Shown piece after piece: positions 15,547 to 58,965 of a DNA stretch of 64,000 nucleotides. A program made the translations under genes and the position numbers. Positions within the stretch are counted from its first letter, which is position 1. The number at the start of each line of letters is the position of its first letter. The notes beneath the pieces were generated by a model. That model searched no databases. It saw only the letters and a list, made by a program, of their open reading frames with translations, and was not told where the DNA came from. Source of the DNA: Gemmatimonadota bacterium (GTDB lineage: Bacteria > Latescibacterota > UBA2968); contig VXRD01000003.1 of assembly GCA_009838845.1 (NCBI GenBank), positions 1 to 64,000 on the forward strand, read 5' to 3'.

Positions 15547-15640
15547 GCGAATCGACGAATCAACGAATCGACGAATCAACGAATCAACGAATCAACAGAA
15601 TAGTGTACAACTGGTTAGTGAACGGGTCTGGAGATTCTGT
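15547..15640. repeat. octamer-array element E2
   Basis: Six units of CGAATCAA or CGAATCGA in perfect 8-base register (about 15549-15596), then an inverted pair ACAGAAT (15595-15601) / ATTCTGT (15634-15640) around a 32-base centre. It lies between the dehydrogenase stop (15650) and the isomerase start (15517). Related elements are at 14651, 28732 and 58866. Confidence 0.75.
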
Positions 15641-28731: not shown

Positions 28732-28836
28732 GCGAATCTACGAATCAGCGAATCTACGAATCTACGACAGAGTTTGTAATAATTTTGGGTGGTGGAGCGG
28801 GGTTCGTCTATTCGTCTATTCGTCTATTCGTCTATC
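28732..28836. repeat. octamer-array element E3
   Basis: Left arm: CGAATCTA, CGAATCAG, CGAATCTA and CGAATCTA, beginning at 28733. Then about 37 bases of centre with GGGTGGTGGAGCGGGG. Right arm: TTCGTCTA repeated four times (28803-28834). The whole unit is an inverted form of element E4 at 58866 with a matching centre. The stop codon of the gene at 28832 lies in the last unit. Confidence 0.8.
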
Positions 28837-54383: not shown

Positions 54384-54914
54384 TTATTTTTTCATGATCA
54401 AATTGAGACCTTCAATTTTTCGCACGGGCAAATCCCTGCCCAAAGCATGTGCTGAAGTGCCTTTATTCAGTGACTCGGTCAAAAATTGAATCGATTGACC
54501 CAGGACGGGGTGTTTGAGGTCGGGTTTGAGGTCGCAAAGCGGCACCAGGACAAATGCGCGCTCGTGTAAGTGTGGGTGTGGCACCTGCAAGCCCGGCTGG
54601 TTGATGATGGCATCGCCATAGAGTAAAATATCGAGGTCCAGTGTGCGCGGGCCCCATCGCGTCTCGCGCAGGCGACCAAATTTGCGCTCAATTGCCAGTA
54701 GGCAATTCAATAAACTTCGCGCAGAGAGACTGGTATGGACTTGCAGAACTGCATTGAGAAAATACGGCTGGTCAACGACACCTATCGGAGCGGTTTCATA
54801 GACAGCAGAGGCAGCGATAATGGCGATTTCGGGTTTTTCATTTAGGATACCCGTCGCGTCCTGAAGCGTTTTTTCTCGATCTCCCAAATTCGCGCCAATG
54901 CCAATGTAGATCAC
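54384..54914 (-). CDS. folK: hydroxymethyl-dihydropterin pyrophosphokinase
   Basis: The protein is 176 residues. It has IGIGANLGDREKTLQ, WGPRTLDLDILLYG and PHPHLHERAFVLVPL. It transfers pyrophosphate to the pterin for folate synthesis. Near the C terminus (NKGTSAHALG) it carries a 9-10 residue insert encoded by a 27-bp repeat also found in ygfZ. The start GTG overlaps the folB stop by 4 bases. Confidence 0.93.
   Translation of the reverse strand: MIYIGIGANLGDREKTLQDATGILNEKPEIAIIAASAVYETAPIGVVDQPYFLNAVLQVHTSLSARSLLNCLLAIERKFGRLRETRWGPRTLDLDILLYGDAIINQPGLQVPHPHLHERAFVLVPLCDLKPDLKHPVLGQSIQFLTESLNKGTSAHALGRDLPVRKIEGLNLIMKK
54445..54471. repeat. 27-bp palindromic insert inside folK
   Basis: GCATGTGCTGAAGTGCCTTT and seven more bases, identical to 55514-55540. 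The central CTGAA/TTCAG arms can pair. It encodes NKGTSAHA in a surface region of both proteins. Confidence 0.85.
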
Positions 54915-55296: not shown

Positions 55297-56313
55297 TTAA
55301 GTCAAGCGGTTTGCTGTAAATGGCAAGTTGACCACTTCGGCCTCTGATCCGTCGTCCAGTAGCACGCGCTGTCCTGCTTCGTGATAGCCCCGTCGGATGA
55401 TGGCAAGGGCGATTGCGCGATTGAAGTGGAGAGATTTCACACATGTCGTTACCCGTCCGACGGTTTTATCGTTGACTGTGATATTGCCACAAACAGGCGT
55501 ATTGCCGCTCAATGCATGTGCTGAAGTGCCTTTATTCAGTAACAAGCCGGTTAGGTAGCGGCGGGGGCGTCCTCGAAAGTGCATTTTGGCGATTACTTCT
55601 TGTCCAATGTAGCATCCCTTGTCAAAATCGACTGCGCGATTTAAACCAGCTTCGAGGGGCGCGACTGATTCATCTATCTCGGCGCCATAACGGGGGATGC
55701 CAGCTTCAACCCGCAATATTTTCTCCACTTGCCAGCCGATTGGCGTTCCTCCCGCTGTGACGAGTGCCCGCCGCAATGAATCGGCACGGTTTTGTGCAAT
55801 GCGGAGATCACAGCCCGGTTCACCCGTGTATGATCGCGCGGTGACCCAAATTGGGATGCCTTCAAATTTGCGTATAATCGTATGATGTTCGGGGAGGTCA
55901 GCCGGTATGCGCCCAACAACTCGACCGGCCAGCTCAAGGGCTGTGGGACCCTGTACCCCTAATATGGCCCAGGCGTCGGATTCGTCCGATAGTGCGACAT
56001 CATCGGCGATCAGATAGCGATCCAGGGTTTCCATCAACTTTGTCGCAAGTCCCGGTTCTGTTTCCATATAGATACAATCTTGTAAGCGGTGGACCCAAAC
56101 ATCTAATAGCGTTTGTCCTCGCGCCGATGTGACTGCAGCGTAATTGCCTTCATTTTCGGCGAGGGATTCAACGGTGTTGGTCACCATGCCGTGCAAAAAT
56201 CTCAGACAATCTGCGCCTTCTGCACGCACTTTGCCTCGCTTGCTGCGGTTGAATACTCCCGCGTTTTCTCGAACGGCACGGTACTGCGTTTCCACATTTC
56301 GATGCGATGACAT
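55297..56313 (-). CDS. ygfZ: YgfZ/GcvT-family folate-binding Fe-S protein
   Basis: The protein is 338 residues. The family signature KGCYIGQE is in DFDKGCYIGQEVIAKM, with FLHGMVTNTV and LGVQGPTALELAG earlier. It binds tetrahydrofolate and helps maintain certain Fe-S enzymes such as MiaB. A 27-bp insert encodes NKGTSAHAL in a loop between strands. It starts the folate cluster. Confidence 0.9.
   Translation of the reverse strand: MSSHRNVETQYRAVRENAGVFNRSKRGKVRAEGADCLRFLHGMVTNTVESLAENEGNYAAVTSARGQTLLDVWVHRLQDCIYMETEPGLATKLMETLDRYLIADDVALSDESDAWAILGVQGPTALELAGRVVGRIPADLPEHHTIIRKFEGIPIWVTARSYTGEPGCDLRIAQNRADSLRRALVTAGGTPIGWQVEKILRVEAGIPRYGAEIDESVAPLEAGLNRAVDFDKGCYIGQEVIAKMHFRGRPRRYLTGLLLNKGTSAHALSGNTPVCGNITVNDKTVGRVTTCVKSLHFNRAIALAIIRRGYHEAGQRVLLDDGSEAEVVNLPFTANRLT
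55514..55540. repeat. 27-bp palindromic insert inside ygfZ
   Basis: Identical over 27 bases to the insert in folK at 54445-54471, in the same frame and orientation relative to the gene. The length is a multiple of three, so the frame is kept. Confidence 0.85.
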
Positions 56314-58865: not shown

Positions 58866-58965
58866 GCGAATAGACGAATAGACGAATAGACGAATAGACG
58901 AACCCCACCCTACCACCCAAAGTTGCTAAAAACTATGTCGTTGATTCGCTGATTCGCCTATTGTG
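58866..58965. repeat. octamer-array element E4
   Basis: CGAATAGA repeated four times, CGAACCCC, a centre that includes CTACCACCCAAAGTTGC, then TTGATTCG and CTGATTCG. It is element E3 in the opposite orientation. It starts 12 bases after the stop of the sigma factor gene. Confidence 0.8.

Follow-up and report, generated by a model that had tools for sequence, protein, structure and literature searches.

Two identical 27-bp sequences in folK and ygfZ

Two unrelated genes in the 64,000-nucleotide stretch of DNA analysed here (the window) carry the same 27 bases in the same reading frame, which raises the question of whether the shared residues belong to the two proteins or whether the bases entered both genes as a unit. 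The host genes and the two copies are the following.

54384-54914, minus strand: folK (HPPK) host gene, with the insert beyond the C-terminal end of the Pfam HPPK domain (residues 3-131)
54445-54471, minus strand: 27-bp hairpin element in folK (LNKGTSAHA); empty site GAGT^CTTTGG in 8 congeners; covariance model R1, 40.9 bits
55297-56313, minus strand: ygfZ/gcvT-like host gene, with the insert close to where the C-terminal barrel domain begins (GCV_T_C, residues 252-332)
55514-55540, minus strand: identical copy of the 27-bp hairpin element in ygfZ (LNKGTSAHA); absent in 10 congeners; covariance model R1, 40.9 bits

The original prediction had held that the 27 bases are identical and lie in the same frame and orientation in the two genes. 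Their identity was confirmed on the plus strand; on the minus strand both copies read ACTGAATAAAGGCACTTCAGCACATGC, and both open reading frames translate this as LNKGTSAHA. The assignment of the hosts is based on PF01288 (139 bits) for folK and on PF01571 and PF08669 for the GcvT/YgfZ-like protein. By chance, 64 kb should hold about 5e-7 pairs of identical 27-mers, and a shuffle control gave no chance match.

The two copies are only 1.07 kb apart, and no further copy with their stem and loop was seen. The copies in IS256-type genes of one congener (G006) also share a single variant, and together with the proximity of the folK and ygfZ copies this hints at local spread.

Structure of the element

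The unit in folK and ygfZ can be written A-CTGAA-TAAAGGCAC-TTCAG-CACATGC, that is, a stem, a 9-nt loop and a tail. It had been described as a 27-bp palindrome, a description that proved too generous: only 5 bp pair (CTGAA with TTCAG; 6 bp in some subfamilies) and the 7-nt tail is unpaired, and a full palindrome was rejected. The 27-nt consensus of the family consists of a 6-nt arm, a 9-nt loop T-W-N4-C-R-Y, a complementary 6-nt arm and a tail RCANGC. The loop ends and the RCANGC tail are conserved, while the letters of the stem are almost free (ACTGAA, ACTGAC, ACTGGA, CCCGTA, CCCTGC and others).

Folding of a single copy gave a result no better than that of shuffled sequence; one copy alone does not show the pairing, which becomes evident only when many copies are compared. 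We searched with a pattern that fixed only ACTG and CAGCACANGC and allowed any spacing from 5 to 35. A spacing of 13 was dominant in the congeners, with 58 matches in 8 genomes by manual count, and 57 of these were complementary at the two stem positions left unfixed, one via a G-T pair; the same search found no spacing-13 class in the order-level outgroups. In a covariance model built from 36 copies, 97.8% of the cells were paired, and 20 cells had changed on both sides, compared with 5.9 in shuffles, none of 500 shuffles reaching as high a value. A broader model added wholly different stems (CCCGTA/TACGGG, CCCTGC/GCAGGG, CCTCGA/TCGAGG and CCTTGC/GCAAGG) with the loop ends and tail unchanged. 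Some of these different-stem copies were selected partly for their pairing; independent proof that the stem pairs therefore comes from the ACTG/CAGCACANGC spacing search and from a nested copy in ligA, described below.

Two length variants were observed. One apparently intergenic copy (L104, G008:C1:2322969-2322994) is 26 bp long with an 8-nt loop, and at another site (L116) the element has 27 bp in G006, compared with a 21-bp version in five genomes (L242-L246), perhaps a decayed copy.

The element family is restricted to one genus

Pattern searches of the source genome (G000) recovered six copies in which the stem is the same, plus copies whose stem differs but again matches, and the broad covariance model marked 70 places in this genome at E values up to 5. 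At E values up to 0.01, the model gave 9 to 86 matches per genome in 11 of 11 genomes of the Ca. Latescibacterota genus, and one match in total across 53 other genomes of the phylum; the sister genera gave matches at background level only. When 257 Gb from 85,000 species genomes were scanned, the ACTGAA class came from Ca. Latescibacterota records. One record is filed as Gemmatimonadota, with its match at the same position as in a congener (G010:C417), and seven scattered strays compare with about seven expected by chance. The element family is thus restricted to one genus. Two of the congener genomes are single contigs, which makes an artefact of short-read assembly very unlikely.

A viral vector was also considered and rejected: two scans of viral contigs returned four matches, and these look unrelated in their flanks and loops. 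We found no literature on such repeats in Latescibacterota.

Empty sites and insertion history

The original prediction had proposed that orthologues without the insert would tell an insertion from a part of the fold. The insert was missing from ygfZ in 10 of 10 congeners and from folK in all 8 with readable sequence, mostly at 85-91% identity; the cleanest empty site in ygfZ is TT^ATTGAG in G007 and G009. The opposite outcome, relatives sharing the residues in both genes, did not occur. Because every congener with readable orthologues lacks them, the folK and ygfZ copies are recent insertions. Ten further sites differ between species by 27 bp, namely those in or beside an M56 peptidase gene, the 3' flank of the RNase P RNA gene (rnpB), a PD-(D/E)XK protein gene, pcm, ligA, the locus L096, an ABC permease gene, a gene for an SCO1-like protein, an IS256-type transposase gene and a tRNA flank. 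At the rnpB site the gain is 28 bp rather than 27, with one extra T, and several other junctions are ambiguous by one base. Insertions occur in either orientation, and no clear target duplication was found at the presence/absence sites. In ligA of G001 another 27-bp element, with a different stem (CCCGA...TCGAG), has entered the first, and the resulting nested insert of 54 bp adds 18 codons and leaves the frame open.

Paralogous repeats within the source genome also provide empty sites. The window holds two copies of an octamer-flanked intergenic repeat that lack the hairpin, and the same repeat elsewhere in the source genome (L091, at G000:C22:28961, and L101) bears a 27-bp element at the corresponding point.

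28733-28835, plus strand: octamer-flanked intergenic repeat without hairpin; point 28783^28784, AAT^TTTGGG
58867-58960, minus strand: second copy of the octamer-flanked repeat without hairpin; point 58921^58922

On a tree built from these loci, one change is needed at the folK, ygfZ, M56 and SCO1 sites, and three to four changes are needed at the rnpB, pcm, ligA, PD-(D/E)XK and ABC sites. The tree is weakly supported, with three well-supported inner branches only, and the patchy sites would fit precise loss, exchange between species or repeated gain alike. Movement is read here from a comparison of species that are about 10-20% apart at these loci.

In-frame insertions in coding sequences

Ten insertions lie in intact reading frames; five of them read LNKxTSAxA and five, in the opposite orientation, ACAExxLFS. 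Of the six frames of the element, three contain stops. None of the ten insertions uses one of these three, and a copy whose frame includes TGA is in a transposase gene that is broken. Because stop-containing frames are never used in intact genes, insertion is probably blind to frame, with selection removing the rest. An insert in an open frame is tolerated and most likely translated as nine extra residues of no evident benefit. In LigA the insert occupies a part of the adenylation domain in which the E. coli enzyme (2owo) has seven residues fewer. Hairpins of this kind thus add short runs of residues to core proteins, DNA ligase among them.

Three explanations that do without insertion of a mobile element can be weighed against these results. 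That NKGTSAHA is part of both the FolK and YgfZ folds and arose by convergence has the in-frame reading alone in its favor; this is so improbable that we set it aside, for the empty sites in the congeners refute it and the same DNA occurs in non-coding sites and, as ACAExxLFS, in another frame and orientation in other genes. The hairpins within conserved genes would also suit a mini-intron or bypass element that is removed or skipped at the RNA or translation level, but the exclusive use of stop-free frames in intact genes is what would be expected if the inserts are translated, and we consider such removal very improbable. Slightly less remote, and still improbable, is the view that the inserts are ancestral and were lost by precise deletion rather than gained. 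The three to four changes required at the patchy sites do make some losses or exchange likely; the folK and ygfZ inserts, however, occur in one genome only and are lacking in its sister genome and the outgroup, and the paralogous empty copies and the nested insertion show gain. 

The repeat is very probably a non-autonomous, very small mobile hairpin element, a statement that leaves aside the enzyme concerned; its mobility is well supported by the 27-bp presence/absence at many orthologous sites, the compensatory changes in the stem, the nested insertion and the restriction to one genus.

Target sites and possible mechanism of movement

The flanks of 62 non-redundant sites read Y^TYTG, which is a preference and not a fixed sequence. 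Many copies lie within ATCCTG-type tandem repeats, and the element is also found in tandem-repeat elements of 7-8 bp, in other palindromes and within another copy of itself. One copy is situated 4 bp from the end of the RNase P RNA (rnpB), and another adjoins a tRNA gene.

In our reading the 27-nt hairpin is copied whole and enters Y^TYTG-like sites in both orientations, as a rule with no duplication of the target; the enzyme responsible would read the folded single strand plus the tail. Such reading is suggested because the stem letters are nearly free while the pairing and the tail are kept; these two features, the defined ends, the lack of duplication and the preferred target together fit a structure-reading enzyme acting on single strands. 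Read on the opposite strand, the order is target CARA, GCNTGY and hairpin. IS200/IS605 and REP elements have a similar order of target, guide and hairpin, and our first choice is therefore transposition in trans through single-strand DNA (HUH-type), at a likelihood somewhat short of even. It is also conceivable, at a likelihood somewhat short of even, that the element represents a previously undescribed class of mobile hairpins with free stem letters, in which an enzyme of this genus would move every strand of 27 nt whose 6-nt arm pairs with a second arm around a 9-nt loop and which ends in an RCANGC tail. If this is true, the class would rank with the smallest known units of DNA that spread, and essential proteins would have in it a natural means of gaining nine residues in frame.

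The search for the mover gave no candidate among the Y1 transposases. PF01797 was not detected in G003, G005, G007 and G008, of which G007 and G008 are single-contig genomes with dozens of copies each, and no element match was found near or within any Y1 locus. A RAYT or Y1 enzyme as the driver was rejected on these grounds, the inspected Y1 genes being IS200/IS605-like without nearby elements. A comparison of what the 11 species share and the sister genera lack offers a way to seek the mover.

An alternative route runs through RNA: an RNA copy of the hairpin would be reverse-transcribed at a new site, as an RNA-mediated small dispersed repeat. Conserved pairing suits RNA as well as it suits single-stranded DNA, the copies beside rnpB and the tRNA gene would be in keeping with an RNA intermediate, and the same holds for the failure to detect a Y1 gene in the two single-contig genomes. 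Fixed ends and a preferred target, on the other hand, are no less in line with a DNA endonuclease. Also against the RNA route is a weak strand bias between replichores in the two single-contig genomes (53 vs 28, p = 0.007), which, with boundaries set after sampling GC skew and copies that are not all independent, is suggestive only. We place the RNA route second, as somewhat less likely than HUH-type transposition, which is retained as the first choice.

Comparison with known small repeats

Small mobile hairpin repeats are a kind already known, found here in a new phylum. The small dispersed repeats of Nostoc punctiforme and its relatives are reportedly 21-27 nt long, with hairpins shared through compensatory change between families of unlike sequence; they are said to occur in 7-bp-type tandem repeats and minitransposons, to be nested in themselves and to be confined to a subgroup, and an origin by copying from RNA has reportedly been proposed for them. 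No enzyme is known to have been linked to the movement of such 21-27 nt elements since they were reported in cyanobacteria by Elhai et al. in 2008 (Genome Res. 18:1484; reference 43 in PMC3116915). By these features, our element resembles the Nostoc repeats in its 27-bp unit, compensatory stem, tandem-repeat context, nesting and clade restriction. It differs in that it belongs to another phylum, Ca. Latescibacterota, and in that our data include empty sites at orthologous loci as well as insertions that keep the frame of core genes. It provides what may be an independent case from a phylum other than the cyanobacteria, one for which empty sites, the structure, the target preference and genomes in a single contig are available.

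REP/REPIN elements, which are moved by TnpA-REP (RAYT) transposases, have a GTRG or CGTC tag 5' of the hairpin foot (PMC6006769, PMC3733652), and the order of target, tag and hairpin is known for both IS200/IS605 and REP elements (PMC6006769). Our element shares with the REP/REPIN type a short hairpin, a one-sided unpaired conserved tag, dispersed copies and this order. Unlike them, it has the tag GCNTGY in the copies seen, occurs mostly as single copies rather than inverted doublets, has no linked RAYT and is often intragenic; membership of the REP type fails because of the tag and the transposase. With the end hairpins of IS200/IS605 it may have in common hairpin recognition, the lack of a clear target duplication, with a gain of 27 bp at nearly all sites, and a short target on one side, here preferred rather than fixed; it differs in having only 27 nt and no internal gene, the Y1 genes of these genomes are not flanked by it, and comparison of its ends with autonomous IS200/IS605 in the genomes gave no model match within Y1 loci.

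The original prediction had likened the inserts to those of Rickettsia in an unrelated lineage. This was borne out as far as they are inserted, dispersed, in frame and in a lineage unrelated to Rickettsia; like the Rickettsia palindromic elements, they are found in frame in genes for conserved proteins and also beside the RNase P RNA gene. A Rickettsia-type element was nevertheless rejected: the Rickettsia elements have 105-146 bp and long stem-loops (PMC2229807), several times the size of our 27-bp element, which is not palindromic over its length and has many copies in intergenic repeats. Judged by these likenesses, the Nostoc small dispersed repeats and REP-type hairpins appear to be closer relatives in kind than the Rickettsia elements.

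Repeat-rich surroundings

The window contains octamer tandem arrays at 15548-15601, 28733-28835 and 58867-58902 (CGAATCAA, CGAATCTA and CGAATAGA), two of which flank the longer intergenic repeat that is an insertion host elsewhere. A second family of intergenic palindromes, ATCGCGGCATGG..TTTGAGCCGCGATCCAG (L320, L352, L355-L358 and L387), is frequent at these loci, often bears the element in its loop and is absent from the window. One contig of the source genome (C91, 77 kb) holds at least eleven elements between 23384 and 75724, far denser than elsewhere, and resembles a repeat-rich island. In four genomes a terminator-like hairpin has the element between its two arms, AAAAACCGCTC and GAGCGGTTTTTTT (L106 in G004, L117 in G002, L259 and L260).
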